Positions 7,994 to 19,846 of a stretch of DNA of 22,466 nt are shown in pieces. The DNA comes from a virus. The DNA lies in the IMG/VR virus record IMGVR_UViG_3300032144_000044, positions 1 to 22,466 of that record; one strand, written 5' to 3'. The position numbers were made by a program, and so were the translations under genes. The first letter of the stretch is position 1; every line of letters begins with the position of its first letter. The notes under the pieces are model-generated. The model made no database searches. It saw only the letters and a program-made list of their open reading frames with translations, and had not been told where the DNA came from.

Positions 7994-8410
7994 TCACTTC
8001 GCCGCTTTCAGGAACTCTTCGAAGTGGCGAATTTTCATTTCGAGCGAAGCCGTGTGCTGGCGCTCCGCATCCAGCTCCTCTTCAAGCCGCGATTTCAGCT
8101 TCACCAGCCCGTAGCCGCGCTTCAGCGTTTGCCAGCGCAGCGGAATTTCGTTGCCGCAGAGATCCATCAGCGCATCAATCTTGTCCGGCGGGAAATGCGC
8201 CTGCCCGGAGCGAGCGCGAGACAACACGCCGGGGTCGATGCCCAGCTCGATGCAGATGCTCTTGTCCTGAAGGCCACCCTCTTCGACGCACTTGAAGCAC
8301 GCGCGCGTCAGCGAGGGAATTTGGCCAACCTGCTCATCAGAAAGGGTTTCTTTCACTTCGCGCACCACCCTGAGTTGTAGGGGTTGTTGGGGTGCTGCAA
8401 TCGACGGCAT
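7994..8410 (-). CDS. CII-like regulator, Phage_CP76 family
   Basis: 138 residues from an ATG at 8410 with GGAG about 11 nt upstream. The centre (residues about 48-95) has the signature of the CP76/CII family: LQDKSICIELGIDPGVLSRARSG as helix-turn-helix, then FPPDKIDALMDLCGNEIPLRW and KRGYGL. The C-terminus (about 105-135) is a probable coiled coil. In related phages this gene follows cro and activates lysogeny genes. A tR1-like terminator between it and the cro-like gene (8453-8481) is consistent with the lambda-like order. Confidence 0.88.
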   Translation of the reverse strand: MPSIAAPQQPLQLRVVREVKETLSDEQVGQIPSLTRACFKCVEEGGLQDKSICIELGIDPGVLSRARSGQAHFPPDKIDALMDLCGNEIPLRWQTLKRGYGLVKLKSRLEEELDAERQHTASLEMKIRHFEEFLKAAK

Positions 8411-8452
8411 AACGATTGACTCCAGTTGTAGGACGCACTTCGGGCCAAATAA

Positions 8453-8481
8453 AACCCGGCTCAGCGAGTGCTGGCCGGGTT
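8453..8481 (-). terminator. tR1-like terminator between cro-like and cII-like genes
   Basis: On the minus strand, AACCCGGC pairs with GCCGGGTT across a 13-nt loop and is followed by TTATTTGG, so the T-run is TTTTATTT. The first arm contains the last bases of the cro-like stop codon. Position matches lambda tR1. Confidence 0.75.
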
Positions 8482-8716
8482 AGGCGGTGAGTGGCGCTGC
8501 CCTGATATAGGCCCAGTCCACCGAATCATTGAGCTGCTCGCAGGTGACGACGCCACCGGTGAGCCGCTCGATGGTCGGGCAGTGATCGGCCGGCACAGGC
8601 CGCTCTCCAGTAATCCACTGGTGAACGGTAGGCGACTTCACCCCGAGAGCCCGCGCTAGCGCCGCCTGACTCCCGACAATTTCGGCCGCGATAGCGACCG
8701 GACTTTTCTCTTCCAT
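8480..8716 (-). CDS. Cro-like repressor, YdaS-type HTH
   Basis: 78 residues from an ATG at 8716. The segment IVGSQAALARALGVKSPTVHQW (about residues 13-34) is a helix-turn-helix of the YdaS/Cro family, followed by the typical ITGERPVPADHCPTIERLTGG and a short tail. The gene is transcribed away from the CI-like gene from a promoter with operators. By position it is Cro: it shuts off cI and adjusts early transcription. YdaS-type proteins are also annotated as antitoxins, but there is no toxin partner here. Confidence 0.9.
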   Translation of the reverse strand: MEEKSPVAIAAEIVGSQAALARALGVKSPTVHQWITGERPVPADHCPTIERLTGGVVTCEQLNDSVDWAYIRAAPLTA

Positions 8717-8743
8717 AGGTCTTCACCAGCAAGTGTCCGAGTG

Positions 8744-8772
8744 ACTGTAAGGCAATGCCTTATCAAAGGCAA
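8744..8772 (-). promoter_or_regulatory. pR-like promoter for the cro/cII/replication genes
   Basis: On the minus strand: TTGCCT (8772-8767), 17-bp spacer, TACAGT (8749-8744). Operator O1 fills the spacer next to the -10, so repressor binding should block it. Confidence 0.7.
8750..8760. promoter_or_regulatory. Operator O1 (OR-like)
   Basis: AGGCAATGCCT, the core of a longer palindrome TAAGGCAATGCCTTA (8748-8762). It is perfect apart from the odd central base and lies inside the pR-like spacer. The same core recurs at 9759 and 9784. Confidence 0.8.
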
Positions 8773-8782
8773 GGCATTGCTT
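8772..8782. promoter_or_regulatory. Operator O2 (OR-like)
   Basis: AGGCATTGCTT, i.e. AAGCAATGCCT on the minus strand, one base from the O1 core apart from the central base. It touches the -35 of the pR-like promoter and lies in the region of the opposing cI promoter. Confidence 0.7.
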
Positions 8783-8807
8783 TATGCCGGGGGTCGACGA
8801 CTAAGGT
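8777..8807 (+). promoter_or_regulatory. Possible pRM-like promoter for a leaderless cI transcript
   Basis: TTGCTT (8777-8782) and TAAGGT (8802-8807) are spaced 19 bp. The -10 ends 6 nt before the cI start codon at 8814, so transcription would begin at or near the ATG. No Shine-Dalgarno precedes the ATG, which agrees with a leaderless message as in lambda pRM. The -35 is weak, as expected for an activated promoter. Confidence 0.4.
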
Positions 8808-8808
8808 T

Positions 8809-8819
8809 AGGCAATGCTT
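8809..8819. promoter_or_regulatory. Operator O3 (OR-like), overlapping the cI start codon
   Basis: AGGCAATGCTT, matching the common core at 9 of 11 positions; the ATG of the cI gene is inside it. Binding here would repress cI, the role of OR3 in lambda. Confidence 0.6.
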
Positions 8820-9269
8820 ACTGGACCAGAACTCGGAAAAGCCATAGACCAAGCGCGCCAGCTCAAAGGAATGAGCAAGGCGGAGCTTGCCCGCGCCTTT
8901 AAGGTGACCCCGCCATCGGTTCAGGATTGGATTAAGTTTGGCCGAATCGATAAGGGCCGGCTCAACGACCTTTTTGCACTTTTCGCGGATGTTGTCGGGC
9001 CTGAGCATTGGGGGCTTTCGCGCGGCGACGTGATGGTCGTTGCTGAAGAGGGCGCAGCTTATGTTGTGGAGGTGAAGGCAAAGACGCCGGATCCTGCCCG
9101 CAATGCCTGGATTTCCATTTTTGACGAGATGGACACCAAAGAGGAGCAAGCGGCAGCTTTGGCCGTGATTAAAGTATTTAAAGCAACATATCGACCGCAA
9201 CCACAGGCGGGGCCATTAAAGAGAGCGGATGGCGGCCGGGATGCAACACGCAAGGAACGGAAAAAGTAA
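8814..9269 (+). CDS. CI-like lysogeny repressor without peptidase domain
   Basis: 151 residues from an ATG at 8814. The N-terminal segment LKGMSKAELARAFKVTPPSVQDWIKFGRI (about residues 17-45) is a helix-turn-helix of the CI/Cro class. The rest (to about 130) is a short mixed domain without the Ser-Lys pair of LexA-like autoproteolysis that would be expected in classical CI. The C-terminus is strongly basic (RKERKK). Induction may therefore need an antirepressor; a KilAC-type gene is present at 11131. It is divergent from the Cro-like gene and shares the operators between them. Confidence 0.88.
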   Translation: MLTGPELGKAIDQARQLKGMSKAELARAFKVTPPSVQDWIKFGRIDKGRLNDLFALFADVVGPEHWGLSRGDVMVVAEEGAAYVVEVKAKTPDPARNAWISIFDEMDTKEEQAAALAVIKVFKATYRPQPQAGPLKRADGGRDATRKERKK

Positions 9270-9369
9270 TCAGCCTCTGTACCCGAAGAAGCTGCTCGAC
9301 ATGCTTTAACTATGGGTGCAGCAGCCGCACGTATGACCACGACAAGCCCGGAAGCCAGGATGGGGATTC

Positions 9370-9705
9370 ATGATGGAATACAGCGTTATCGTGGCAGGAA
9401 CTGGATTTGAGGGGCGCGATGGGCGGATTCGGCTTGCTGCGAAGCCCGGGATGCCAGTCAAATTGGTGCCTGAACCGCAAAATAAATATGACCAGAACGC
9501 TATTGCTGTTTATCTACCTGTTAGAGCGTGGTACACGCTTTTCATCAGAACAGAAGTCCAAATCGGCTACATAAAGCGCGATCGAGCAGAATTCTTTACG
9601 AAGAAGATGCGCGAAGGCGGGAAGATTATCTCCGCGTCGATCAAGAGCATGTACACAGAGCAAAGCCACCCGCGAGTTTCTTTAACGGTAACCACCGACT
9701 GGTAA
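9370..9705 (+). CDS. HIRAN-domain protein in the rexAB position
   Basis: 111 residues from ATG 9370 (or 9373), with GGATGGGG upstream. It is nearly all one HIRAN domain: YSVIVAGTGFEGRDG, then VKLVPEPQNKYDQNAIAVY (about residues 30-49; the P-x-N-x-YD-x-NAI signature), then IGYIKRDRAEFFTKKM. HIRAN domains bind DNA ends or damaged/stalled DNA and occur in SNF2-type helicases and small phage proteins. Here there is no helicase part. The gene lies between the repressor and the pL-like operators, where lambda keeps rexAB, so expression in the lysogen from the cI transcript is likely. Confidence 0.85.
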   Translation: MMEYSVIVAGTGFEGRDGRIRLAAKPGMPVKLVPEPQNKYDQNAIAVYLPVRAWYTLFIRTEVQIGYIKRDRAEFFTKKMREGGKIISASIKSMYTEQSHPRVSLTVTTDW

Positions 9706-9758
9706 CCCACCTTAACAGATCCGACTATTTATCGATTTAATTTATCGCCCAAAAAATA

Positions 9759-9769
9759 AGGCAATGCCT
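9759..9769. promoter_or_regulatory. Operator OL1-like
   Basis: AGGCAATGCCT, identical to operator O1 at 8750-8760. It abuts the -35 of the pL-like promoter. Confidence 0.8.
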
Positions 9770-9770
9770 A

Positions 9771-9799
9771 TTGACACATGATGAGGCAATGCCTAATCT
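9771..9799 (+). promoter_or_regulatory. pL-like promoter for the DGR/accessory/integrase operon
   Basis: TTGACA (perfect -35, 9771-9776), 17-bp spacer, TAATCT (9794-9799). One operator sits just before the -35 and another fills the spacer beside the -10, as in the pR-like promoter. The first DGR target starts 34 nt downstream of the -10. Confidence 0.85.
9784..9794. promoter_or_regulatory. Operator OL2-like
   Basis: Second exact AGGCAATGCCT, centred 25 bp from the first and ending in the first base of the -10. Repressor bound here should exclude RNA polymerase. Confidence 0.8.
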
Positions 9800-9832
9800 C
9801 ACCCCATCGCCACCCACAACGGACCCCGGACG

Positions 9833-10336
9833 ATGGAAACCACCACCCAGCTCACCACCCTCAACCTGCCTCGCGTTGGCGCCCATTGGCCCGAGCAGGG
9901 CGGCATCTTCATCGGCCTGATTCCCGGCCAGAACGGCCAGCCGGACTACGCGCTGATCGCCCCGGACCACCAGGCCGCACTGTTCGAAAACGTGCAGTGG
10001 GGCCCGCGCGGCGTCGACGTACCCGCTGCCAACTCCGATTGGGACGGCGCGACCAACACCCTCGTGATGAACGGCGCCGGCAGCCAGCTCGCCCGCGACA
10101 TCCTCCAGCTCGAAATCGACGGCTTCTGCGGCTTCTACCTGCCGGCCCGCCATGAGCTGCGGCTGATGAAGCTCGTCGCTCCGCAATTGATCGTCGATGA
10201 CTGGCACTGGTCGAGCACGCAGTACTCCGCTCACCTCGCGTGGGACCAGGGCTTCGATGGTGGCAGCCAGCTCAACGGCGGCAAGGACAGCGCGCTTCGC
10301 GCTCGCGCAGTCCGCAGATTCTTAATTATTCAGTAA
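9833..10336 (+). CDS. DGR target protein 1 (DUF1566/C-type-lectin-like)
   Basis: 167 residues from an ATG at 9833; first gene after the pL-like promoter. The N-terminal part has a GGIFIGLIPG motif (about residues 23-32) shared with the two other targets, then a DYALIAPDH segment, a WGPRG motif and FYLPARHELRL (about 98-108). The C-terminus has the DUF1566/FGE-like ending, WHWSSTQYSAH through to ALRARAVRRF, which adopts a C-type lectin fold in DGR targets. Codons 129-155 form the variable repeat. There is no signal peptide or membrane segment. The ligand is unknown; diversification should alter a binding surface. Confidence 0.93.
   Translation: METTTQLTTLNLPRVGAHWPEQGGIFIGLIPGQNGQPDYALIAPDHQAALFENVQWGPRGVDVPAANSDWDGATNTLVMNGAGSQLARDILQLEIDGFCGFYLPARHELRLMKLVAPQLIVDDWHWSSTQYSAHLAWDQGFDGGSQLNGGKDSALRARAVRRFLIIQ
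10219..10321 (+). repeat. DGR variable repeat VR1 with 3' homing block
   Basis: 77 columns (10219-10295) align with the template repeat at 14357-14433 without gaps. There are 13 differences, every one at a template adenine. The next 26 bp (10296-10321) are identical in all three variable repeats and probably act as the initiation-of-mutagenic-homing site. Confidence 0.93.
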
Positions 10337-10348
10337 TTCAACCATTCC

Positions 10349-10363
10349 ACGCGCGCAGCGCGT
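10349..10363 (+). repeat. Hairpin after VR1
   Basis: ACGCGC-GCA-GCGCGT, a perfect 6-bp stem with a GCA loop, 12 nt after the stop codon. Equivalent hairpins follow VR2 and VR3. DGR homing is known to be stimulated by a hairpin or cruciform just downstream of the variable repeat. Confidence 0.85.
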
Positions 10364-10389
10364 TCGGCGCGAATTTTTGGAGGGATGCC

Positions 10390-10560
10390 ATGCAAATCAA
10401 TTTGCCGGACAACACGCCATTCATCGAGCTGGCGCGCTTCGCACACAGCATTGGCTGTGACGTGATCACGCGCAGCCCGACGTAACTGGAATTGCGGCCA
10501 AGCCCGGAAGCGCAGGCGCTGGCTCGCGCCCTCGATCGGGCGGAACCGCGCCGTGCATAA
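10390..10560 (+). pseudogene. Small gene interrupted by a TAA stop
   Basis: An ATG at 10390 with a good GGAGG site reads 31 residues to a TAA at 10483-10485. The same frame stays open beyond it for 24 more codons (LELRPSPEAQALARALDRAE...) to a TAA at 10558-10560, and the next small gene starts in the usual overlapping way at the end of that longer frame. The simplest reading is a 56-residue gene broken by one nonsense change. A truncated but functional 31-residue protein is possible. No family is recognised. Confidence 0.55.
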
Positions 10561-10705
10561 CGCACACGTCGTCGCCTGGTTGCACGCCTTCTACTGGTCG
10601 CTGGAGCAACAGGGGCGGCTCTGGTCGATGGCATTCGTTGGCCAATGGCACGACGACGAACTGAAGCTGGCACAGGAGGCCATGCAATGTCGCAGCAACA
10701 ATTGA
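10553..10705 (+). CDS. Small hypothetical protein
   Basis: 50 residues from a GTG at 10553 that overlaps the end of the preceding broken frame. The sequence is Trp/His rich (VVAWLHAFYWSLEQQGRLWSMAF) with an amphipathic C-terminal part. It overlaps the next gene start at 10687. No family is recognised, but the tight overlaps and codon use fit the operon. Confidence 0.55.
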   Translation: MHNAHVVAWLHAFYWSLEQQGRLWSMAFVGQWHDDELKLAQEAMQCRSNN

Positions 10706-10974
10706 TCAACCGCATCACCGAACTCGCCATCGATCTGTGCACACGGCGCATCGAGATCGTGCATGTGCGCTACGACGGCGCTGCCAACCAGCTGCAGATC
10801 ACCATCGGCGCCAGCTTCAACCGCCCGCCGCGACGGCAGATGAGTATCGATCTGGCTGAGCCGAGCGATAGCGAGCTGACACGCGCCCGTGTGCTGAAGA
10901 ACCTCAGCGAAGCGGCAGCGATGCTGGAAAACCTGAAGCGCTACCACAGCAACCAGCCCGAAGGGGTGGCGTGA
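10687..10974 (+). CDS. Small hypothetical protein
   Basis: 95 residues from the ATG at 10687, preceded by GGAGG; longer readings begin upstream inside the previous gene and lack a site. The first 25 residues are helical, followed by strands (IEIVHVRYDGAANQLQITIG) and a C-terminal helix (about 62-88, rich in Leu/Glu/Ala). No family is recognised. Its stop shares a base with the ATG at 10974. Confidence 0.75.
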   Translation: MSQQQLINRITELAIDLCTRRIEIVHVRYDGAANQLQITIGASFNRPPRRQMSIDLAEPSDSELTRARVLKNLSEAAAMLENLKRYHSNQPEGVA

Positions 10975-11129
10975 TGCGCAAGCCAATCCTCGGCCTGCAT
11001 GCCGACTACCGCAGCCTGCCGAAGATGCGCTTTCGCTGGAGCCGGCTGCGGATGGAGTGGGGGCGCGAATGCTGGCGCGTCGACAGCTGCGGAACCATTC
11101 GCGCCACTTGGTGGGAGTGGGAGCACTGA
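10974..11129 (+). CDS. Small basic, tryptophan-rich protein
   Basis: 51 residues from the ATG at 10974 (TGATG junction). It is rich in Arg and Trp (RFRWSRLRMEWGRECW, and WWEWEH at the end). Such small basic proteins are frequent in phage accessory operons. No family is recognised. It ends 1 nt before the ATG of the KilAC-domain gene. Confidence 0.6.
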   Translation: MRKPILGLHADYRSLPKMRFRWSRLRMEWGRECWRVDSCGTIRATWWEWEH

Positions 11130-11130
11130 A

Positions 11131-11544
11131 ATGCAGGTACACGCCGGCATCACCATCGCAGCAGCAGCACAGCAACTCGGCATCGGTAGCCGAACCCTGT
11201 TTCAACTGCTCCGCGATCACGGCGTGCTCAGCAGCAACAACATTGCAACCCGCCACTACATCGTCAGCGGCGACTTCATCAACCAGGAGCGCAGCGCGTT
11301 CAAGCAGGGCACCCACATTCGTCGCTGGTACACGGTGGCACTGGTCACCGGCCGCGGCATGAGCCTGCTGCAGGAGATCGTCGGTGGAGTGGCAGCGAAT
11401 GGGCAAGTGGTGGTGGCAGAGCAGGTGCAGCCGCTACCGGATCAGCGCAGCGATGTGCGACCAGGTGATGAAGTACGACGCCTGGGCGTACACAACGGAA
11501 TCAGCAACACCATGGGGCGCGCTCGGCACACGTCGGGACGCTGA
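11131..11544 (+). CDS. KilAC-domain protein (antirepressor-type C-terminal domain)
   Basis: 137 residues from the ATG at 11131. Residues about 7-90 match the KilAC pattern of phage antirepressors: ITIAAAAQQLGIGSRTLFQLLRDHGVLSS as winged-helix core, then a YIVSGDFINQ segment and a VTGRGMSLLQEIVGG ending. There is no separate Bro-N or KilA-N domain, so the protein is a free-standing KilAC domain. The last 45 residues overlap another credible gene in a different frame and may be unimportant or the result of a frameshift. An antirepressor role would suit a CI lacking self-cleavage; this is inferred. Confidence 0.75.
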   Translation: MQVHAGITIAAAAQQLGIGSRTLFQLLRDHGVLSSNNIATRHYIVSGDFINQERSAFKQGTHIRRWYTVALVTGRGMSLLQEIVGGVAANGQVVVAEQVQPLPDQRSDVRPGDEVRRLGVHNGISNTMGRARHTSGR

Positions 11545-11641
11545 ATCAGCCAGGAAATTGTGCGAGGAGCACCGCAATGCTGCAGAGAGCGAAAGGGGTT
11601 CAGTCAATGAAGCGCGCCAACCAGCTGCTGACGATGCGTGA
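11399..11641 (+). CDS. Small hypothetical protein overlapping the KilAC gene
   Basis: 80 residues from the ATG at 11399, with GGAG about 9 nt before it; a GTG at 11384 is an alternative. The first half has the look of a conserved short phage protein (YRISAAMCDQVMKYDAWAY, then LGTRRDAESARKLCEEH). It overlaps 146 nt of the KilAC frame and 65 nt of the next gene, which is unusual in this operon. One of the three frames is probably longer than the real product. Confidence 0.55.
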   Translation: MGKWWWQSRCSRYRISAAMCDQVMKYDAWAYTTESATPWGALGTRRDAESARKLCEEHRNAAESERGSVNEARQPAADDA

Positions 11642-11858
11642 CCAGCTCGCCACCCAGCTCGGCGAAAAGTACCGGCCCAGCATCGAGACCTACATGCCTT
11701 TCGTATCAGCAGCAGTAGCGCGCTGCGGTTGCGCGATCACCGCGGCGAACGAAGTGATCCAGCTGCTTGGCGATATGGGCGATGACATCGCCGTCAAGCG
11801 GCTGGTGACTTGTGCCGCGCTGGAGCTGGCACTCGGAACGCTGCCGGTGGCGGCATGA
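11577..11858 (+). CDS. Small hypothetical helical protein
   Basis: 93 residues from the ATG at 11577, chosen because GAGGAG lies 7 nt upstream; an ATG at 11607 is possible. The sequence is strongly helical with alternating hydrophobic faces (VARCGCAITAANEVIQLLGDMG, then VKRLVTCAALELALG). No family is recognised. Its stop overlaps the next ATG (ATGA). Confidence 0.75.
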   Translation: MLQRAKGVQSMKRANQLLTMRDQLATQLGEKYRPSIETYMPFVSAAVARCGCAITAANEVIQLLGDMGDDIAVKRLVTCAALELALGTLPVAA

Positions 11859-11959
11859 ACAGGCGCCAGCGTCACAGCGCATATCCACTACTGATCACGG
11901 TCGGGCTGATTCTCGGCTGGTACGCACTCGGCATCGCGGCTTACTTGGCTCAACCGTGA
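11855..11959 (+). CDS. 34-residue single-span membrane peptide
   Basis: ATG at 11855 overlapping the previous stop; TGA at 11957-11959. A basic N-terminus (NRRQRHS) precedes one hydrophobic helix (PLLITVGLILGWYALGIAAYLA). It is followed by an overlapping GTG. Small membrane peptides of this kind occur in phage early operons; no function is claimed. Confidence 0.6.
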   Translation: MNRRQRHSAYPLLITVGLILGWYALGIAAYLAQP

Positions 11960-12299
11960 TCCTGATCGCCACCTACGACAGCGACAAGCAGCAGGGCGGC
12001 GAGCCCCGCTGGCACAACCCGATGCCAGCAGGGCGGCGAGCCCCGCTGGCACAACCCGATGCCAGCAGGGCGGCGAGCCCCGCTGGCACAACCCGATGCC
12101 AGCAGGGCGGCAGCACTGGTTCCTGCGAATGCTCGGATACGGCGCTGATGGCTCGAAATCAGATCGACAACTGAGGGTGAAGCAACCATGCACCTATCAC
12201 GAACTGAGAGCGCAGCTGATCGAGCAAATGCTCGACGAAATTCGCGAGGAAGTTGGTGGCGTCGTGCGCTTTCAGTTCTGGGTCTACAAGGCGAGGTGA
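11956..12299 (+). pseudogene. Gene with frame broken by 37-bp tandem repeats
   Basis: A GTG at 11956 overlapping the previous stop begins ILIATYDSDKQQGGEPRWHNP. Reading then runs into three tandem 37-bp copies. Because 37 is not a multiple of 3, the present frame ends at 12174 with low-complexity sequence. If only one copy were present (74 bp fewer) the same start would lead in frame into the credible downstream sequence ending VRFQFWVYKAR at 12299, a protein of 89 residues. A copy number of 1, 4 or 7 would keep the frame. The gene is therefore broken or phase-variable. The product family is not recognised. Confidence 0.6.
11988..12111 (+). repeat. 37-bp tandem repeat, three copies plus a partial fourth
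   Basis: Copies at 11988-12024, 12025-12061 and 12062-12098 are identical except the first base; about 13 bp of a fourth follow. The unit begins CCAGCAGGGCGGCGAGCC and ends CACAACCCGATG. Confidence 0.95.
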
Positions 12300-12301
12300 A
12301 T

Positions 12302-12517
12302 ATGGAAATCATCAACACCGAAATCGAAGCCGCGGCGCGCATGAAATCGCTCGCCAACGTGGCCGGCGAACGCCGGGAGTTCGGCTACATCGAACGGCGC
12401 GGCACCTACCACGTGGGGCAGACCCGATACATCGAGGCGGTCTACGGCATGCAGCCGTTGGGGCGCTATCGCAACAAGGGCGCCGTGCGCCCACAACCAC
12501 TGAGGGCAGCACTGTGA
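12302..12517 (+). CDS. Small hypothetical protein
   Basis: 71 residues from the ATG at 12302, preceded by GAGGTGAAT. It starts with a helix (MEIINTEIEAAARMKSLANV) and continues basic (ERREFGYIERRGTYHVGQTRYIEAVYG). No family is recognised. The stop overlaps the GTG of target 2 by 4 nt (GTGA), implying translational coupling with that target. Confidence 0.75.
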   Translation: MEIINTEIEAAARMKSLANVAGERREFGYIERRGTYHVGQTRYIEAVYGMQPLGRYRNKGAVRPQPLRAAL

Positions 12518-13113
12518 GCAATGAAATCCCGACCATTCCCGGCACCCCGCTCGAAGGCGGCTTCTACGCCGGCCGCATCCGCGTTGGCGACGATGTTTTC
12601 GCACTGATCGTCGCGCCGAAAGCCGAGGGCGATCACGACAATATCGAGTGGGGCAATCGCGGCAAAGAAATCGCAAACGCTGGCAGTTACTTCGACGGCC
12701 GCGCCAACACCGTCGCCATGGCTGAGGCCGGCAGCGAGGTCGCGCAATGGGCGCTGCAGTTGCGCATCGCCGGCTTCGAAGACTGGTACCTGCCGAGCCG
12801 CGACGAGCTGGAGATCTGTTACCGCAATCTGAAGCCGACCACCGAGACGAACTATGTGTGGCGTCACGGCGACAACCCGAGCAGCGTGCCGGTCGGTTAT
12901 CCCTATAGCCAAAACAGCCCGGCAATGACGACTGCCGAACCGTTCCGCGAAAACGGTGCAGAGGCATTCGTCGACACCTGGTACTGGACCAGCACGCTGT
13001 GCTCCGCTCACGTCGCGTGGAGCCAGGACTTCGGTGATGGCCTCCAGTTCAACGGCGACAAGGTCAGCGCGCTTCGCGCTCGCGCAGTCCGCAGATTCAA
13101 AGTCATCAATTAA
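12514..13113 (+). CDS. DGR target protein 2 (DUF1566/C-type-lectin-like)
   Basis: 199 residues from the GTG at 12514 (GTGA overlap; GAGGG upstream); upstream in-frame codons lack a start with a site and run through another gene. It shares GGFYAGRI, WGNRGKEI, and WYLPSRDELEI (about residues 90-100) with the other targets, has an extra 30-residue insertion before the C-terminal region (NYVWRHGDNPSSV...), and ends WYWTSTLCSAH through ALRARAVRRF. The insertion makes it the longest DUF1566-like core of the three. The last 26 codons before the ending are variable. No signal peptide. Confidence 0.93.
   Translation: MSNEIPTIPGTPLEGGFYAGRIRVGDDVFALIVAPKAEGDHDNIEWGNRGKEIANAGSYFDGRANTVAMAEAGSEVAQWALQLRIAGFEDWYLPSRDELEICYRNLKPTTETNYVWRHGDNPSSVPVGYPYSQNSPAMTTAEPFRENGAEAFVDTWYWTSTLCSAHVAWSQDFGDGLQFNGDKVSALRARAVRRFKVIN
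12996..13098 (+). repeat. DGR variable repeat VR2 with 3' homing block
   Basis: The 77 aligned columns are 12996-13072. There are 15 differences from the template, all at template adenines. The 26-bp shared block is 13073-13098. Confidence 0.93.
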
Positions 13114-13129
13114 TCCATTCAACCATTCC

Positions 13130-13146
13130 AGCGCGCGCAGCGCGCT
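13130..13146 (+). repeat. Hairpin after VR2
   Basis: AGCGCGC-GCA-GCGCGCT, a perfect 7-bp stem, 16 nt after the stop codon. Confidence 0.85.
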
Positions 13147-13173
13147 CGACGCGAATTTCTGGAGCATGGAGCC

Positions 13174-13779
13174 ATGAGCAACAGCAACTCGGTAACCCTG
13201 ACAGTCGGATCGGCGCGCATCGAAGTGCCAGCGCGCGACGTGGTCTCGGCCATTCTGGCCAAGCTGACCAGTGATCAGTCAGCAGTGGTGGAAAGCCCCA
13301 ACGCTGCGCCCGCCATTGGTCAATTCTGGCCCGGTCAAGGCGGCATCTATGCCGGCCTGATGCGTGGCCACGATGGCAACCCGGACTATCACCTGATCGT
13401 GCCGACCGATCCGCGCGGCTTCGTTCGCGAGATCGCATGGGGCTCTCAAGGTAAGGAGGAGGCCGGCGCCTGTTCAGACTTCGATGGGCAGGCCAACACG
13501 ACTGCGCTGGCGAAATCGAAGCATGACCACCCGGCTGCAGAGTGGGCTGACGCCCTCGACATCGAGGGCCATGCCGACTTCTACCTCCCTTCACGTCGTG
13601 AGCTGCGCCTGTGCTGGGTGAACGTGCCGGAGCTGTTCGATGAAGGCTGGTACTGGTCGAGCACGCAGCACTCCGCTCTCTACGCGTGGAACCAGGGCTT
13701 CGGTGATGGCGGCCAGGGCATCAGCGACAAGGACACCGCGCTTCGCGCTCGCGCAGTCCGCAGATTCGTCAGTCATTGA
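13174..13779 (+). CDS. DGR target protein 3 (DUF1566/C-type-lectin-like)
   Basis: 201 residues from the ATG at 13174. Unlike target 1 it has an extra N-terminal segment (about residues 1-45, VTLTVGSARIEVPARDVVSAI) that may be an oligomerisation or attachment domain. Then come WPGQGGIYAGL (about 50-60), WGSQGKEE, FYLPSRRELRLCW, and the ending WYWSSTQHSAL through ALRARAVRRF. It lies directly upstream of avd. It has no signal peptide. The duplication of the whole unit (gene end, hairpin, conserved GAATTT and ribosome-binding sequence) indicates the three targets arose by module duplication. Confidence 0.93.
   Translation: MSNSNSVTLTVGSARIEVPARDVVSAILAKLTSDQSAVVESPNAAPAIGQFWPGQGGIYAGLMRGHDGNPDYHLIVPTDPRGFVREIAWGSQGKEEAGACSDFDGQANTTALAKSKHDHPAAEWADALDIEGHADFYLPSRRELRLCWVNVPELFDEGWYWSSTQHSALYAWNQGFGDGGQGISDKDTALRARAVRRFVSH
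13665..13767 (+). repeat. DGR variable repeat VR3 with 3' homing block
   Basis: The 77 aligned columns are 13665-13741. There are 12 differences at template adenines and one other (T to C at 13669). The 26-bp shared block is 13742-13767. Confidence 0.93.
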
Positions 13780-13795
13780 GTAATTCAACAATTTG

Positions 13796-13812
13796 ACGGC
13801 GCGCAGCGCCGT
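13796..13812 (+). repeat. Hairpin after VR3
   Basis: ACGGCGC-GCA-GCGCCGT, a perfect 7-bp stem, 16 nt after the stop. The changes relative to the VR1 and VR2 stems are compensated in both arms. Confidence 0.85.
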
Positions 13813-13829
13813 TCGCGAGTTTTTTCAGC

Positions 13830-14186
13830 ATGGCCCTGCATCACCAGCTACCGATTTACAAACTGGCCTATGACCTGCTGAGCACGGCGGTTGATGCCAC
13901 GCGGAACATTCCGCGCGACTTCAAACGTCTGATCGGGGAGAAGGTGCGCGAGGAGTGCGTCGAGCTGACGGTCTTGATTTTCAAGGCCAACGTCGCGCGC
14001 GACAAAGTGCCTTATCTGGAGCAACTGCTGGAGCGTCTGCAGGTTGTGGAACTGCTGCTGCGCCTGTCGCATGACAAGCGCTTTATCGGCCACAACCAGT
14101 ACGCGAAGGCGATCGAGATCACCGATCAGATCGGCAGGCAAGCCAATGGCTGGAAGAAGCATTCAGCAGCGTCGCCCGCTGTCTGA
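13830..14186 (+). CDS. avd: Avd, DGR accessory variability determinant
   Basis: 118 residues from the ATG at 13830. The pattern is that of Avd/four-helix-bundle proteins: LPIYKLAYDLLSTAVDATRNIPRDFKR at the N-terminus, four long helices without Gly or Pro breaks, and a C-terminal QYAKAIEITDQIGRQANGW motif (about 90-110). Avd forms a basic pentamer that binds the DGR reverse transcriptase and template RNA and is required for mutagenic homing. It lies between the third target and the template repeat, the canonical order; the reverse transcriptase that should follow is missing. Confidence 0.92.
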   Translation: MALHHQLPIYKLAYDLLSTAVDATRNIPRDFKRLIGEKVREECVELTVLIFKANVARDKVPYLEQLLERLQVVELLLRLSHDKRFIGHNQYAKAIEITDQIGRQANGWKKHSAASPAV

Positions 14187-14356
14187 GCGTCACGGCGCTC
14201 AGACCTGTGCGACTTTGAATCTGGTCGTGCCGCTGGCCCATGAGGCCACCGACAGGCGCAACAGGGAAACCACCGGCAACTGCCGGCAGGTCTCGCGCAG
14301 TTTCCCGGCTGACAGGCAACCGCCTTCGGTCGGGCGACGTGGATAGCACGACATGC
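14181..14356 (+). ncRNA. Putative 5' part of the DGR template RNA
   Basis: A gene-free spacer between avd and the template repeat. It begins with a 9-bp hairpin, GTCTGAGCG/CGCTCAGAC with a 6-nt loop (14181-14204), that contains the avd stop, and continues with further self-complementary GC-rich blocks (CCGGCAACTGCCGG near 14273). Template RNAs of other DGRs extend upstream of the template repeat and are structured; that this stretch does so is inferred. Confidence 0.5.
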
Positions 14357-14433
14357 GCAGTACTCCGCTCACAACGCGTGGAACCAGAACTTCGATGATG
14401 GCAACCAGAACAACAACGACAAGGACAACGCGC
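14357..14433 (+). repeat. DGR template repeat (TR), 3'-truncated
   Basis: 77 bp with 27 adenines; in the register of the targets it reads as eight AAC codons plus GAC, GAT and AAG. The AAC bias prevents stop codons after adenine mutagenesis. It is not translated: in that register a stop lies at 14310-14312 upstream. Matching with the three variable repeats ends at GCGC, and the 26-bp 3' block present after each variable repeat is absent here. Confidence 0.93.
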
Positions 14434-14460
14434 CTATCAGCAGTACCAGGAGCTATTGAA

Positions 14461-14910
14461 ATGACAGCTATCGAAGAGAAGGCGCTGCGGGAGCTGTCAC
14501 AGAAAGCTGCGACTGATTGTGAATTGTTTGTATGCAGGCATGGGCATATTGACGCCGTAACTCTCATTGCCCTGCTCGACACCATCGCGGAGCTGCGGCG
14601 TGCGGTAGAAGAAAACACTAACTGGTATGACAAGTATCAGCGCGACGTTGAGGGGCTAAACAATGAGGGTGATCCAATAGGCGGCGACCCACCGCGCGGG
14701 TTGAGGCACATCGCAGCCGAAGCAAGAGAGCTGCGCGTAGAACTCGCCGCGATCCGGGCGCTGGAGCCGGTGGCGTGGGTTCGGTTTCGCTCAGATGGCG
14801 GAATCGAGGGGCCGATACTCGACAGCCGCATGGAGGAGGTGCGTAAGCGCTCTGGTGTTTGGACTCCGCTCTACGCCCTCCCCCAACCAGCACCGACTGA
14901 GGAAGGCTGA
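14461..14910 (+). CDS. Ead/Ea22-like phage accessory protein
   Basis: 149 residues from the ATG at 14461, with AGGAG 8 nt upstream; an upstream in-frame ATG at 14353 would translate the template repeat and is rejected. The N-terminal half is helical (about residues 3-70), and the C-terminus has the EPVAWVRFRSDG ... PLYALPQPAP pattern found in Ead/Ea22-like proteins of lambdoid accessory regions. No biochemical function is known. The ATG overlaps a TGA in another frame that closes a short stretch described in the findings. Confidence 0.75.
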   Translation: MTAIEEKALRELSQKAATDCELFVCRHGHIDAVTLIALLDTIAELRRAVEENTNWYDKYQRDVEGLNNEGDPIGGDPPRGLRHIAAEARELRVELAAIRALEPVAWVRFRSDGGIEGPILDSRMEEVRKRSGVWTPLYALPQPAPTEEG

Positions 14911-14911
14911 G

Positions 14912-15142
14912 ATGGCTGACGGTATTAAAGCTGGTTGGATCGGCCCGTGGCACCAAGCGCCACTTAATGAATGGGCGATTGTTGGCATGAATCACTACCA
15001 CGTTGCAGGGGAGCGTTTTCTATTCGTCAGCATGACAAAAGGCGGTCGGTGCATCACAGAAGAAGGGAAAGACGATCAATACCTGTGGAACCGGCTTTGG
15101 CATAAAGCACAGCACGCACCGACTGAGGAGAAAGAATCGTGA
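14912..15142 (+). CDS. Small hypothetical protein
   Basis: 76 residues from the ATG at 14912, directly after the previous stop. It begins MADGIKAGWIGPWHQAPLN and ends HAPTEEKES, with a middle segment of short strands. No family is recognised; the APTEE ending echoes the Ala/Pro tail of the preceding protein. It overlaps the next start by 4 nt. Confidence 0.75.
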   Translation: MADGIKAGWIGPWHQAPLNEWAIVGMNHYHVAGERFLFVSMTKGGRCITEEGKDDQYLWNRLWHKAQHAPTEEKES

Positions 15143-15564
15143 GTGACGCAGCAGTAGCAGCAATTGAGTATGCACTTGGCGGCGGCATGGACGCCTTCGA
15201 CGCGCGTGAGTTTTTGAGAATGTGGAGCCACGGCGAGTTCTCGGATATTCGCAACTATTACGCGCGTGTTCCTGAAGAAGTTTTCATCGGGGCCGATCCG
15301 CTGCACCCGGAGACAAAACTGCAAAGCGAGCCGGCCGAGGCGCGAGGTGTGCCGGAAGCTGAACGGCTGGCAGCTGATATAGACGCGCTCTACAGATGGA
15401 CAGGCTGCCTCAGTTACAACGACTCATATGTCGGCGAGCCAGAAGGCGAATTCAAGCGCCGCATCCGCAGCCTATCAAAGATGCTCGATCAGGTAAGAGC
15501 GGAGCGTTCCGCCGCCCCCGCGCCAGCAGCCGAACAGGAGGGGAAAGACAATGGCAACGTGTAA
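15139..15564 (+). CDS. Hypothetical accessory protein
   Basis: 141 residues from a GTG at 15139. The first half has a DUF551/Ea-like look without a firm match (DAFDAREFLRMWSHGEFSDIRNYY). Residues about 72-120 are helical, and the C-terminus is an Ala/Pro-rich tail. Overlaps the next gene by 14 nt. Confidence 0.7.
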   Translation: MSDAAVAAIEYALGGGMDAFDAREFLRMWSHGEFSDIRNYYARVPEEVFIGADPLHPETKLQSEPAEARGVPEAERLAADIDALYRWTGCLSYNDSYVGEPEGEFKRRIRSLSKMLDQVRAERSAAPAPAAEQEGKDNGNV

Positions 15565-15835
15565 TTGCCAGACCGAAGTAACCGAAAAACTTCTGGAAAA
15601 CTTCAAAGACAAATTCCCTGAAGCGTTTTTGCACAAGGTGAATTTAACCAGCTACTCATTATTCATAAACGGTACAACAGGGCAGTGTGGCAGTGCCTAT
15701 GTAGTCTATTACGAGGCGGAAGCTGAATACCCACTAAAGAAAGGCGGATTGAAACGAAAGAAATTAAAAGGTTCGATAGTTGCCAACTACTGCCCGTTTT
15801 GCGGGATCAGTACGAAGGAGAAAGGCAATGGCTAA
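15551..15835 (+). CDS. Small zinc-ribbon-like phage protein
   Basis: 94 residues from the ATG at 15551. It has an N-terminal CNC pair (residues 4-6) and a C-terminal CPFCG motif (about 81-85), which together could bind one zinc ion. Between them is a beta-rich core (YSLFINGTTG, AYVVYYEAEAEY) and a lysine-rich loop. The layout matches small proteins of phage accessory regions with unknown role. The A/T content is higher than in neighbours, suggesting separate acquisition. Confidence 0.78.
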   Translation: MATCNCQTEVTEKLLENFKDKFPEAFLHKVNLTSYSLFINGTTGQCGSAYVVYYEAEAEYPLKKGGLKRKKLKGSIVANYCPFCGISTKEKGNG

Positions 15836-16487
15836 GAAATTGATCGAAGTTGATGCGCCGGAAGGGTACGAAGTTCACGAGGTTCACGTTGCATCGTCAG
15901 AAGGAGATTTCGATTTCCAAGAGGCTGGTTTCCGCATCATCGAAGCGCCGCAAGCGGGGGCGGTGAGTGATAAAGCAATTGCTGATCTCGTGCGCCTGAA
16001 AATGTCCAGTGGCAATAGCGTTCCAGTAGATCGGTGTTTTATTACTGCGGGCGAACTCAGCGCCCGCCTCTCCCAGCAGCCAGCGCCGCAAGCAGGGGTG
16101 GATGCCGTAAAACTTCTTGCTCTAATTGATATTGGCTTGAAGTTCTGCTTGGCAAACTCCGACTTTTCCGGGTGCCGCAGAGATATTAAAAAGGTGCAGG
16201 CCGATGTTGATGCGCTGACTGCCCTCCTCTCCCAGCAGCCAGCGCCGGAGGTTGAGCCAGATATGGCGAGAATAAACCGCTTCATCAACTTCGGCGCTAC
16301 TGAACAGCCGCCCCTCGTTGACCGAGTGCGGGAGGCGATGACGCCACGCCAGCGTAAACAGCCGTACCGAAACGCCGTGATGGTGGCAAATGAGCTAATG
16401 GACACCTATCCCGATGACACTCGGCTTGACGACATTCACGAAGTAACGGAAGCCGTGCGCGTTGTTCTGGCGGAGGGGGGTGAGTGA
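15828..16487 (+). CDS. Hypothetical accessory protein with repeated linker
   Basis: 219 residues from the ATG at 15828. The start (MAKKLIEVDAPEGYEVHEV) is a short beta unit common in phage proteins. Two copies of an LSQQPAP linker (about residues 81-87 and 134-140) separate three blocks; the corresponding 22-bp DNA repeats are 16067-16088 and 16226-16247. The C-terminal block (RNAVMVANELMDTYPDDTRLDDIHEVTEAV) is helical. It looks like a mosaic assembled from Ead-like modules. No function is known. Confidence 0.72.
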   Translation: MAKKLIEVDAPEGYEVHEVHVASSEGDFDFQEAGFRIIEAPQAGAVSDKAIADLVRLKMSSGNSVPVDRCFITAGELSARLSQQPAPQAGVDAVKLLALIDIGLKFCLANSDFSGCRRDIKKVQADVDALTALLSQQPAPEVEPDMARINRFINFGATEQPPLVDRVREAMTPRQRKQPYRNAVMVANELMDTYPDDTRLDDIHEVTEAVRVVLAEGGE

Positions 16488-16756
16488 TGAAGCAAATCGT
16501 AATTTTCCCGCGTGGATGCTTGACCGAGTTAGACCGAGCGCGTCTTGATGCTGCTGATATCGTTGCTGTTGAGTGCGACGATCCTTCAAAAGTCGTCTAC
16601 GCCATTCCGGCAGCCGAGACAGTGTGCCCGAGCGACATGCTCATGGCAGCGCTCAAGGCGGTTAAAGAAGGGAACGAAGGAAACCGCTTTATTTCCGACC
16701 TCTATCGCCGATTGATTGAGCGAGAATTGAAGGCAGAGCGGCAGGAGGTGGGGTGA
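16487..16756 (+). CDS. Hypothetical accessory protein
   Basis: 89 residues from the ATG at 16487 (GTG at 16484 is the other option), preceded by GGAGGGGGG. It begins with a strand-helix pattern (KQIVIFPRGCLTELDRARL) and ends with a charged helix. No family is recognised. The stop overlaps the next start. Confidence 0.72.
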   Translation: MKQIVIFPRGCLTELDRARLDAADIVAVECDDPSKVVYAIPAAETVCPSDMLMAALKAVKEGNEGNRFISDLYRRLIERELKAERQEVG

Positions 16757-16992
16757 TGGCCGCATCAAATGAATCAGCGCGCCCAGCTGCCGATTGGGTG
16801 ACGGAAGAAGTCTTCGCCAACCACGTTGGCCTGACCGCCAACGCGATCATCTTCCCGCTGTTTGGCTGGCCTCTTTCGCTGCACCAGAACCTGAGCCTGG
16901 GCCTGATCTACACCGCGATCTCGATCGCGCGCAGCTACTGCATCCGCCGCTGGTTCAACCGTAGATTGATTCAGGCGAGAACCCAGCCATGA
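16753..16992 (+). CDS. Two-span membrane protein, DUF7220-like
   Basis: 79 residues from GTG 16753 or ATG 16756, with GGAGGTGGGG upstream. Two hydrophobic segments (about residues 28-43, ANAIIFPLFGWPLSLH, and 46-62, LGLIYTAISIARSYCI) are joined by QNLS and followed by the RRWFNRR basic end. This N-x-x-P-L-F-G ... Y-T-x-I-S-x-A-R-S-Y pattern matches small membrane proteins of phage accessory regions. Function unknown. Confidence 0.8.
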   Translation: MMAASNESARPAADWVTEEVFANHVGLTANAIIFPLFGWPLSLHQNLSLGLIYTAISIARSYCIRRWFNRRLIQARTQP

Positions 16993-17138
16993 CTGAACCA
17001 GCGCGTGCCGGCCGCTCGGCGCTGATCGAGATCATCGCTCGCCAAATCGTGAGGGCGCATCTGGCGGCCCAGGTTGCCGGGCAGCCCCCTCAAGGTCACA
17101 ATCCCGGCCGACCCGCCCTCCAGCCAGCCGCCAGATAG
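16989..17138 (+). CDS. 49-residue hypothetical protein before the integrase
   Basis: ATG at 16989 overlapping the previous stop (ATGA) and ending at TAG 17136-17138, 7 nt before the integrase start. It is Ala/Arg rich with a helical N-terminal half and a Pro/Gly-rich end. An excisionase-like role could be imagined from position, but no HTH is seen. Confidence 0.5.
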   Translation: MTEPARAGRSALIEIIARQIVRAHLAAQVAGQPPQGHNPGRPALQPAAR

Positions 17139-17145
17139 CCAACCC

Positions 17146-18741
17146 ATGCTTGTCGCCGTCTACTGCCGCTACAGCTCCGATCGCCAGCGCGAAACCTCCA
17201 TCGCTGACCAGCTCCGAGTTTGCCAGACCTTCGCCGACCAGCGCGGCTGGAGCCTGGTGGCGATGCACAGCGACGAGGAGGTCAGCGGTAGCACGCCGGT
17301 TCGGGCGCGTCGCGGTGGCGCTGCACTGCTGGCTGATGCAATGGCCGACCGGTTCGGCGCGCTGGTGCTGGAAGGGCTCGACCGTCTCTCGCGCGACCTG
17401 GTCGAGCAGGAGACCATCGTGCGCCGGCTGGAGCACCGCGGCATCCGGATCATCGGCGTGTGCGACGGCTATGACTCAGAGGCCACCGGGAAGAAGCTGC
17501 ATCGCGGCATGCGCGGGCTGATCAACGAGGTGTACCTAGACGACCTCCGGGCCAAGACTCACCGCGGGCAGGCCGGGCAGGTGTCGCGCGGCTACTCGGC
17601 CGGCGGCGGCGGGTACGGCTACCGGTCAACGCATGACGGCACCGGATACCGTATCGAGATCGACGAAGACCAGGCGCGCTGGGTGCGCTGGATCTTCGAG
17701 CACTTCGCCGAGGGCTGGTCGAGCAAACGGATCGTCGCCGAGCTGAACCGGCTGCGGGTGCCGAGCCCGCGCGGCGGCACCTGGGCGGTCTCGGCCGTCT
17801 ACGGGAGCGCCGCGAAGGGCTGCGGCATCCTGCACAACGAGCTCTACGTCGGCCGCTACATCTGGAACCGCAGCCAGTGGGTGAAGGATCCCGACACCGG
17901 CAAGCGCCAGCGCTTCGAGCGACCGCGCAGCGAGTGGCTGATTGAGGAGCGGTCCGCGCTGCGGATCATCGACCAGGCGATCTGGGATGCCACGCGGGCG
18001 AGGTTCTCGACGTCGTATAAGGAAGGCGGCACGAAAGGGAAGGGGCGCGCGCCGCGGTCACTGCTCGGCGGGCTCATGAAGTGCGGTTACTGCGGCGGGG
18101 CGGTCGTGGCGATCAATGGCAAGCTCTATGGCTGTGCCACAAAGCATGACCGAGGGGCGGTGGTCTGTCGTGGAGTGTTCGCGCCGCGGCAGGAAACCGA
18201 AACACGGATTCTCGCGGGCGTTCGGGAAGAGCTGCTGCGGCCGTCAGCCATCGCAGAGATGCAGCAGATGGTCACTGAGATGCTGCGCGCCGAGTTGGCG
18301 GTAGGAGAAAGCGAGGCGAAAGCAGCACGCGGTCGAGTGGTCGAGCTGGAACGGGAGATCGATCGACTGGTCGAGGCGATTGCATCGGTAGGGATTTCTG
18401 ACGCGCTGACTCAGCGGCTGCGAAATGCCGAAGCCGAACTGGCGTCCGTCCGAAGAACAGCAGCGACGTCGTCAGGAAAGAAGGTTGAGATCCCGAACCT
18501 CAAGAGCATCTATCGCGAACAGGTCATGAACCTGCAAGAAGCACTTCGGAGCGATATTCAACAAGCGCGCAATGCGCTGAGGGAAATGATCGGGCCCATC
18601 ACTGTCGTCGAAAGAAACGACGAAGTGTGGGCCCAGATCGATACAGGCCCGGAAGCTATGTTGAAGGCTTCTGGTCTGTATATAGGATTGGTAGCGGGGG
18701 CCTGCTTCGGTTCCAATATACGGGAGATCAGGATCAGCTAG
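17146..18741 (+). CDS. int: Large serine integrase
   Basis: 531 residues from the ATG at 17146; in-frame starts further upstream overlap the preceding gene and lie before the catalytic motif. The resolvase domain (1-150) begins YCRYSSDRQ with the nucleophilic serine at position 10, followed by GLDRLSRDL near 87-95. The recombinase domain follows (GYSAGGGGYGYR, then the IFEHFAEGWSSKRIVAELN helix pair). A zinc ribbon comes next (CGYCGG ... GCATKHDRGAVVC, about 312-340), and a coiled-coil segment (about 385-470). It integrates the phage at attB/attP. The C-terminal tail is hydrophobic and unusual. Confidence 0.93.
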   Translation: MLVAVYCRYSSDRQRETSIADQLRVCQTFADQRGWSLVAMHSDEEVSGSTPVRARRGGAALLADAMADRFGALVLEGLDRLSRDLVEQETIVRRLEHRGIRIIGVCDGYDSEATGKKLHRGMRGLINEVYLDDLRAKTHRGQAGQVSRGYSAGGGGYGYRSTHDGTGYRIEIDEDQARWVRWIFEHFAEGWSSKRIVAELNRLRVPSPRGGTWAVSAVYGSAAKGCGILHNELYVGRYIWNRSQWVKDPDTGKRQRFERPRSEWLIEERSALRIIDQAIWDATRARFSTSYKEGGTKGKGRAPRSLLGGLMKCGYCGGAVVAINGKLYGCATKHDRGAVVCRGVFAPRQETETRILAGVREELLRPSAIAEMQQMVTEMLRAELAVGESEAKAARGRVVELEREIDRLVEAIASVGISDALTQRLRNAEAELASVRRTAATSSGKKVEIPNLKSIYREQVMNLQEALRSDIQQARNALREMIGPITVVERNDEVWAQIDTGPEAMLKASGLYIGLVAGACFGSNIREIRIS

Positions 18742-18782
18742 GTGGCCGGACGCATTTCAGCGGTAGAACGGCCAGCTCGCCT

Positions 18783-18808
18783 GCAGGCCAGTAACGGCCG
18801 AGGCCTGC
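18783..18808. terminator. Possible terminator between convergent genes
   Basis: GCAGGCC pairs with GGCCTGC across a 12-nt loop in the 100-bp gap between the integrase and the opposing tail gene. The T-run is poor, so it is a weak call. Confidence 0.3.
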
Positions 18809-18841: not shown

Positions 18842-19846
18842 TCACGGAACGAACTCGGCTGTATTGCTATTGCCGGCAGGCAGAGATGCCAGATCAGCGC
18901 GCTTGGTGAAGGTTGGGCCTGCCGTTACGTCATAAAGTGCGAGAAACGGCGTTATAAAGTGCGCCACTGCAATCAAGCTGTCGTCTGCAGACCACGATAC
19001 GCCATGCGCCGCGCTGGATGGCAGCCCGCTAGGATTGGACCCGCTTGTCAGCAGGGAAAGATCGGACTGGTTATAGACCCGCAAAAATGGCGACCCGCCT
19101 TGGGCGATCGCGATCTTTGTTCCATCGTGAGAATAAGCCACGTCATTCACAGTAGAGCCAGGCAGGGTCGCCGGGTTTGTTCGCTTGCTCCATCCTGATA
19201 CGGTGTAAACAGTTATGTACGGGGACGATGCGTGTCCAATGGAAAGCTCGGCGCCGCTCGGAGACCATGCCGCGCACTGCCCGGTGCTTGCAGGTAGCGT
19301 TGATGGGTCGGCGACCCTTGACCAGTCCGAGGTATTGTAAATAGTGATGTAAGGCGACGTGGCATGGCAGACAACCAGCTTTGATCCATCTGGAGAGAAC
19401 GCCGCATAGTTGGCGTTCCCTGTTGGTAGCACTGATGGGTTTGATATTTTTGTGAGAGTCGTTCCAGAAACCGAATAAATAGTGATATACGGGCTTGTGT
19501 TGTGAGCCACAGCAAGCAGGCTCTTATCAGGCGCCCAGGAGACACCGTTTGCGGTTCCTGTTGGAAGAGTTGCGGGGTCTGCCCACTTTGACATCCCTTC
19601 AACGGTATAGACCAGAACCCTAGGTGAAGCTGTATCAGCAAGGGCAATCAAAGTTCCGTCATTTGTTATCGCAATCTCGTTCACCGTAGATGGTGGGGCA
19701 GACGATGGCGCGCTGCCGACGCTGAAGTTATCCAGGTATCTGGTCAAAAATGGTGACGTGGCATGACCTACGAACAGGTAGTTACCAGGCTGAACAACAG
19801 GAACACCACAAACTGCTCCAATAAGGCCGCGAGGAATCATGGACAT
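18842..19846 (-). CDS. Seven-repeat beta-propeller tail protein
   Basis: 334 residues from an ATG at 19846. Seven repeats of about 44 residues follow the pattern [hydrophobic]-x-[V/I]-[G/A]-H-x-[T/S]-S-P-[Y/F]-[I/L]-x-[I/V]-Y ... LP ... WSPDG, consistent with a WD40-like seven-bladed propeller. The N-terminal 18 residues are separate. It is the last gene of the tail operon and overlaps the DUF2793 gene by one base. A receptor-binding or tail-tip role is inferred from position and fold. The family is known in phages only as hypothetical beta-propeller proteins. Confidence 0.85.
   Translation of the reverse strand: MSMIPRGLIGAVCGVPVVQPGNYLFVGHATSPFLTRYLDNFSVGSAPSSAPPSTVNEIAITNDGTLIALADTASPRVLVYTVEGMSKWADPATLPTGTANGVSWAPDKSLLAVAHNTSPYITIYSVSGTTLTKISNPSVLPTGNANYAAFSPDGSKLVVCHATSPYITIYNTSDWSRVADPSTLPASTGQCAAWSPSGAELSIGHASSPYITVYTVSGWSKRTNPATLPGSTVNDVAYSHDGTKIAIAQGGSPFLRVYNQSDLSLLTSGSNPSGLPSSAAHGVSWSADDSLIAVAHFITPFLALYDVTAGPTFTKRADLASLPAGNSNTAEFVP

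Follow-up and report, generated by a model that had tools for sequence, protein, structure and literature searches.

The DGR of Bordetella phage BPP-1 shares Avd, a template repeat (TR), a VR and adenine-directed variation with the locus described here; unlike this locus it carries an RT, and its target, Mtd, is a tail receptor-binding protein. In the main viral DGR clades, viral targets are mostly annotated as tail proteins (PMC8144416), and the timing of DGR activity in the phage life cycle is described as a little-studied question (PMC11792537). A DGR under repressor control has been described before, in the Bacteroides hankyphage: most phage genes were reported to be expressed more strongly once its CI-like repressor was silenced, and the DGR was active in either condition (PMC12135933). 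Unlike the phage studied here, the hankyphage is a Mu-like transposable phage and its DGR target is a tail fibre (PMC12135933). No description of a DGR under a pL-type promoter with repressor operators was found in the literature searched, which mostly excluded subscription papers, so that absence is unproven.

The closest immunity systems described are those of the Escherichia coli prophages Rac (K-12) and CP-933P (O157:H7). RacR binds the racR-ydaS region, which holds three GCCTAA/TTAGGC repeats, as reported from EMSA and ChIP (PMC5700373). For CP-933P, it is reported that PaaR2 and YdaS bind operators between their genes, that each protein lowers the activity of the distant PL933P promoter about 100-fold, and that paaR2 is leaderless, like lambda cI (PMC8630535).

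The DNA analysed here (the window) spans an entire IMG/VR record of 22,466 bases, itself probably a fragment, with a lambda-like layout in its middle. Family searches placed a Toprim primase and a DUF5906 helicase (replication genes) on the minus strand. The plus strand carries cI, a HIRAN gene, the promoter, the DGR genes, small ORFs and the integrase; the gene order given in the first-pass annotation was right. Comparison of positions 8400-18800 with phage records gave no near match. The features are as follows.

7994-8410, minus strand: gene for a CII-like regulator (PHROG 101 CII-like activator, weak match, E 0.0027; no Pfam match)
8480-8716, minus strand: Cro-like gene of the YdaS family (PF15943, E 1.1e-25; P22_Cro, 1.6e-8)
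8750-8760: candidate operator between cro and cI, exact copy of AGGCAATGCCT
8772-8782: candidate operator variant between cro and cI, AGGCATTGCTT, at a position conserved in relatives
8809-8819: candidate operator variant over the cI start codon (ATG at 8814), AGGCAATGCTT
8814-9269, plus strand: CI-like repressor of the RacR family, 151 aa, HTH only
9370-9705, plus strand: HIRAN-domain gene (PF08797, E 7.4e-12) in the position of the lambda rex genes (rexAB)
9759-9769: candidate pL operator 1, exact AGGCAATGCCT, ending at the -35
9771-9776, plus strand: -35 TTGACA of the pL-like promoter
9784-9794: candidate pL operator 2, exact AGGCAATGCCT, covering the start of the -10
9794-9799, plus strand: -10 TAATCT of the pL-like promoter, 17 bp from the -35
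9833-10336, plus strand: DGR target T1, first gene after the promoter (VR 10218-10295; phrog_4245, E 4.4e-28)
11131-11544, plus strand: KilAC-domain (phage antirepressor) ORF inside the operon (PF03374, E 1.7e-7)
12514-13113, plus strand: DGR target T2, GTG start (VR 12995-13072; Lcl_C, E 2.4e-9)
13174-13779, plus strand: DGR target T3 (VR 13664-13741; phrog_4245, E 4.8e-34)
13830-14186, plus strand: avd (bAvd PF22296, E 1.1e-15, 58.5 bits against a cut-off of 40; PHROG 3206, Avd protein of DGR)
14170-14358, plus strand: avd-TR spacer, matching Rfam RT-15 RNA (RF03018, 183.5 bits, full length)
14356-14433, plus strand: template repeat, 3' end missing, no RT after it
17074-18741, plus strand: large serine integrase, distal and in the same direction as the operon (PF00239, PF07508; PHROG 95 integrase)

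The integrase had relatives in phages, all at less than 60% identity. The minus-strand genes at 18842-22415 were read, from their position, as tail genes; the targets lie away from them, between cI and the integrase, and a structural-gene DGR was rejected. The HIRAN gene sits between cI and pL in the window, and a relative in another locus (L084) is on the opposite strand. An antirepressor-type KilAC domain is itself encoded within the operon predicted to be under the repressor.

The first-pass annotation had described a TTGACA-17-TAATCT promoter overlapped by two exact copies of AGGCAATGCCT 25 bp apart, with the same core at 8750 and altered forms at 8772 and 8809 between cI and cro; all these positions were confirmed. 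Chance palindromes were rejected, because site counts far exceeded expectation and shuffles: the AGGCANTGCCT pattern had three exact matches in the 22,466-base window (0.03 expected; at least three in 0 of 100 shuffles) and the 14-base operator form, searched on both strands with up to two mismatches, had 12 (1.87 expected; at least 12 in 0 of 100 shuffles). As in a lambda-type OL/pL left operon, the promoter lies 3' of cI on the same strand and shares the operators of the cI-cro region. Its -10 matches TATAAT at only three of six positions (T1, A2 and T6), which explains why a generic sigma-70-like scan of 8400-15000, with no promoter found, missed pL itself. One further operator-like sequence, AAGGCAATGGCTAA, with one mismatch, lies inside coding sequence at 15822-15835 and is probably there by chance.

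The window belongs to the RacR/YdaS immunity family by both of its regulators: RacR of Rac has 57% identity over 74 aa to the window CI, and YdaS has 54% identity over 63 aa to the window Cro. Rac has three sites between racR and ydaS and one at the racR start, as in the window's system, and beyond racR it has a twin-operator TTGACA promoter of the same geometry (CATTAGGCATAGCCTATTGACAATCAATTAGGCATTACCTATAGTTCC). The left operon of Rac holds kilR, recE, recT and others, whereas that of the window carries a DGR. The third regulator, YdaT, showed no similarity to the window CII-like protein (BLASTP E 0.55), which has the weak PHROG 101 match instead. CP-933P resembles the window in its repressor/YdaS switch, with a PL promoter beyond the repressor operon and a repressor gene that is leaderless (in the window, probably so), but differs in operator sequence; the genes after PL933P are of unknown function, and the accessible part of the source mentions no DGR.

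Conservation was assessed in 80 viral loci, the best 80 of 268 CI relatives; all counts in this paragraph refer to this set. At least three operator sites lie over the cI start region in 77 of the 80, the exceptions being L010 (locus starts 20 bases ahead of cI), L073 (no site) and a third locus that has two sites. A second, twin operator pair lies 573 to 7193 bases downstream of the cI start in 72 of the 80, and in 70 of these 72 pairs a -35 (TTTAC, TTGAC or TTGCA) begins exactly 12 bases past the first base of operator 1. Since the distance from cI to the pair varies so widely, the pair is kept as an element in its own right. No twin pair was found within the available stretch of eight loci: six of these (L003, L019, L026, L042, L043 and L054) end 0.5-3.9 kb past the cI start, and the other two (L064 and L073) do not. 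Changed operators can be common to both places, as in L077-L080, which have AGGCTATGCCT at cI and its other strand, AGGCATAGCCT, at the pair. On account of the recurrence at cI (77/80) and downstream (72/80), the window sites are very probably CI/Cro operators. That the palindromes serve another regulator (YdaS/Cro only, or a host factor), with CI inactive there, is very improbable: PaaR2 and YdaS do both act on PL933P (PMC8630535), but, as with RacR, copies of these sites also cover the cI start and are found in the cI-cro region. Since an operator covers the cI start, where AGGCAATGCTT is found in 71 of the 80 relatives, and paaR2 is leaderless, the window cI mRNA is likely to be leaderless as well.

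Downstream of the promoter, the three VRs carry the DGR signature. Over 78 aligned positions, the T1 VR differs from the TR at 13 of 27 adenines and 0 of 51 other sites, the T2 VR at 15 of 27 and 0 of 51, and the T3 VR at 12 of 27 and 1 of 51; pooled, 40 of 81 adenines and 1 of 153 non-adenine sites have changed. As to a C-type lectin fold of the targets, Lcl_C was above cut-off for T2 only and a profile match to PDB 8q4e was obtained (E 2e-9). The T1 query found one relative in viral contigs. A structure model of T3 (pLDDT 78.8, VR below 50) had no Foldseek match in the PDB at E 0.001 and so did not confirm the lectin fold. Judged by eye, all three targets lack an evident N-terminal signal peptide, and for this reason they are expected to stay in the cytoplasm. 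The RT-15 RNA family coincides with the avd-TR spacer (and is also annotated in phage Cruim01); in this lineage, RT-15 RNA would seem to be the 5' portion of the template RNA of the DGR.

The cassette has Avd, but neither an RT nor a full TR. The record holds no RVT_1 domain (PF00078) and tblastn beside avd found no RT; the TR stops at 14433, without the CTTCGCGCTCGCGCAGTCCGCAGATTC tail kept by all three VRs, and gives way to an unrelated ORF that has an AGGAG site of its own. As assembled, the cassette is disarmed: transcription from pL would supply the targets and the template RNA, but the operon by itself would bring about no mutagenesis. This point was absent from the first-pass annotation. 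Its reading of a pL-like promoter with phage-repressor twin operators driving the DGR strand was upheld by the 80 CI relatives, by Rac and by other immunity types (below); control of an active DGR must be withdrawn for this record, from which the RT is missing. The agreement of the VRs with the TR at 152 of 153 non-adenine sites suggests that the RT and the TR 3' end were lost recently, presumably by deletion, or else that an RT still acts in trans. The second option, in which the missing RT is an assembly artefact or lies elsewhere in the phage or in the host, fits with VRs written so recently and with a 22-kb record that is a fragment. We nevertheless hold it to be unlikely: the break lies within the TR, with the unrelated ORF after it, RT adjoins avd as a rule (119 of 123 DGR loci, including four short alignments: L095, 40 aa; L134, 57 aa; L174, 112 aa; L197, 114 aa), and the RT is missing or nearly so, by independent losses, in L095, in L102 and L104 (the same DGR) and in L117 (Pseudomonas phage vB_PaeS-D14O).

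The site itself is real, and its reading as a pL with phage-switch operators is well supported by sequence comparison. In L045, L046, L052 and L112, too, a CI of this family goes with a DGR, there with its RT. The full reading, to which we assign a probability of about 0.8, is that 9759-9799 is the OL/pL of a Rac-type lambdoid immunity system, that the DGR operon behind it would be off in the lysogen, and that its RT was recently lost. CI (8814-9269), and probably also the YdaS-type Cro, would occupy the twin palindromes and so keep sigma-70 polymerase off 9771-9799, as at the three cI-cro sites. In the lysogen, CI would occupy both operator clusters, perhaps with looping as in lambda, and the left operon would be kept off: T1, the small ORFs, the KilAC ORF, T2, T3, avd, the DGR RNA/template and perhaps the integrase. 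Upon infection or loss of CI, polymerase would start near 9806, the variable T1 would be read first and these would be immediate-early genes, on a transcript that may extend from 9800 toward the integrase at 17074. Were the cassette complete, this early burst would supply RT along with template RNA and so limit diversification to cells in productive or new infection; the present record would yield only Avd, a truncated template and target variants that stay fixed unless an RT is provided in trans.

Induction is unlikely to proceed by CI self-cleavage (SOS) in this phage, because the window CI is without the Peptidase_S24 domain, which is present in the same-family CI of L112 and L009 (286-aa relatives). 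The KilAC-domain ORF at 11131-11544 may belong to another induction route.

The twin operators would not set the timing if the DGR genes were also, or mainly, expressed in the lysogen via internal promoters or leakage. T2, T3 and avd lie 2.7-4.4 kb from pL, which leaves room for internal promoters, and hankyphage DGR activity was reported in lysogen cultures (PMC12135933). Against this, the scan of 8400-15000 passed no sigma-70-like promoter, with the reservation that pL was missed as well, and we regard lysogen expression as improbable.

The frequency of the layout was assessed in 123 DGR loci: Avd relatives from viral contigs (31 loci), phage records (8 of 10 hits) and named bacterial genomes (80 kept of 141), together with L045, L046, L052 and the window. 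The promoter scan covered 109 loci, those in which avd is preceded by 3.5 kb or more (the other 14 of 123 have less), and looked for promoters overlapped by a pair of sites with a cluster of matching sites 250-6000 bases upstream of them. At the -10, A2 and T6 were required, in place of an earlier rule of four matches in six, which missed the window's own promoter. A stricter palindrome finder found the window but missed the positive controls L059, L077 and L046; a more general scan gave many matches to coding repeats and was left out of the counts. Shuffles of the same stretches and the reverse strands served as controls.

At a score of at least 32, a twin-operator promoter was found in 29 of 109 loci, a count that is not blind because the rules were set after candidates had been seen, against 1 of 1090 shuffles and 9 of 109 reverse strands; at a score of at least 33 the counts were 24 of 109, 0 of 1090 and 8 of 109, respectively. 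The reverse-strand matches (9/109) are taken to include the pR promoters of the same switch, judging from the sequence of L124. With near-identical loci removed, 27 of 103 had such a promoter. The remaining 80 of 109 had none scoring at least 32. Of the 123 loci, 56 have a cI homologue upstream of the DGR and on its strand, and one (L142) has it only in another position; with nine repressor queries, cI was not recognised in 66. Either a cI homologue or a twin-operator promoter was present in 64 of 123.

The operators of the 29 loci are of many different, unrelated sequences, so the layout, which is recurrent in this Avd lineage, is not tied to one immunity type. The first-pass annotation had called lysogeny control of a DGR in a non-structural operon a non-standard arrangement; with 29 such loci the layout is no exception in this lineage, and the hankyphage is a precedent for repressor control. 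Burkholderia phage Magia (MT701587) has, in one direction, cI, a twin-operator promoter, a lectin-fold DGR target, recombination genes, a further target, avd, RT and integrase, with some small minus-strand ORFs between cI and the first target; it differs from the window in its unrelated repressor and operators, the presence of RT and a tyrosine integrase. Its operators are its own, with ATAACCAAAGTTAT-type sites between cro and cI and ATAACTTTGGTTGTTGACACGCCGATAACCTTAGTTATAAT before the operon, and own operators at both cI/cro and the DGR operon promoter were likewise found in L082, L084, Janthinobacterium fluminis (L124) and others. When the promoter region was compared with the cI-cro region of its own locus, no random stretch of that locus matched as well in L082 (0/284), L084 (0/289), L113 (0/291), L089 (0/288), the window (0/295), L045 (0/284) or L112 (0/296). 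In L086, L090, L092, L101, L110, L111, L118 and L119, the cI-cro match fell short of this (3 to 81 of about 290 stretches). In Shewanella phage QDWS, ATAAACACCACGTTTGACAGTCGCATAAACATGGTGTTTAAT was seen by eye beyond the repressor, and its match to the cI-cro region is weak. As isolated phages with the layout exist (Magia and, by eye, QDWS), a bench test is possible.

The DGR would be a cargo module of the left operon, in a lineage that appears to hold the same place in many phages with unrelated repressors. It could be neutral cargo at a lambdoid accessory-gene site, in which case repression of the operon would have no special meaning for DGR function. This is a serious rival, to which we give only slightly less than an even chance, because DGR cargo is rare in the Rac-type CI family: among the best 80 of 268 CI relatives, target homologues occur in four loci and avd in three, other genes occupying the rest. 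KilAC, methylases, RecT and exonucleases share such operons. On the other hand, the Avd lineage follows cI, with both on one strand, in 56 of 123 loci, and a single locus has cI only in another position; this suggests a stable niche, and the lineage is found across many operator types. Of more interest than the single case is that one DGR lineage turns up repeatedly behind the lysogeny operators of many phages.

The reading of 9759-9799 as a repressed OL/pL lends itself to a functional proposal, which is doubtful as a whole: the lineage, in a repressor-controlled immediate-early operon, would diversify non-structural, unexported binding proteins that are made before replication and act inside the new host, the variants here being frozen by loss of the RT. 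Were this true, the targets may act, for instance, against host defences or rival prophages, repression would shield the lysogen from mutagenesis, with new variants arising only when the phage enters a new cell, and the window would represent a later stage in which a successful variant set was fixed by RT loss. The layout points to DGR targets made early rather than to tail proteins, and a DGR operon behind lysogeny-repressor operators would offer, for one lineage, a concrete and testable answer to the question of timing.

The lineage is active in nature, as indicated by two loci, L107 and L108, whose 9,128 shared bases are identical but for 14 positions, all in the VR of one target (L108 87-193) and all at template adenines. 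L107 carries primase and helicase genes on the same strand as the DGR and is not a clean example of the layout. In the left operon of the window, a tandem 37-base unit was observed at 11989-12111 (three identical 49-base copies at 37-base spacing).
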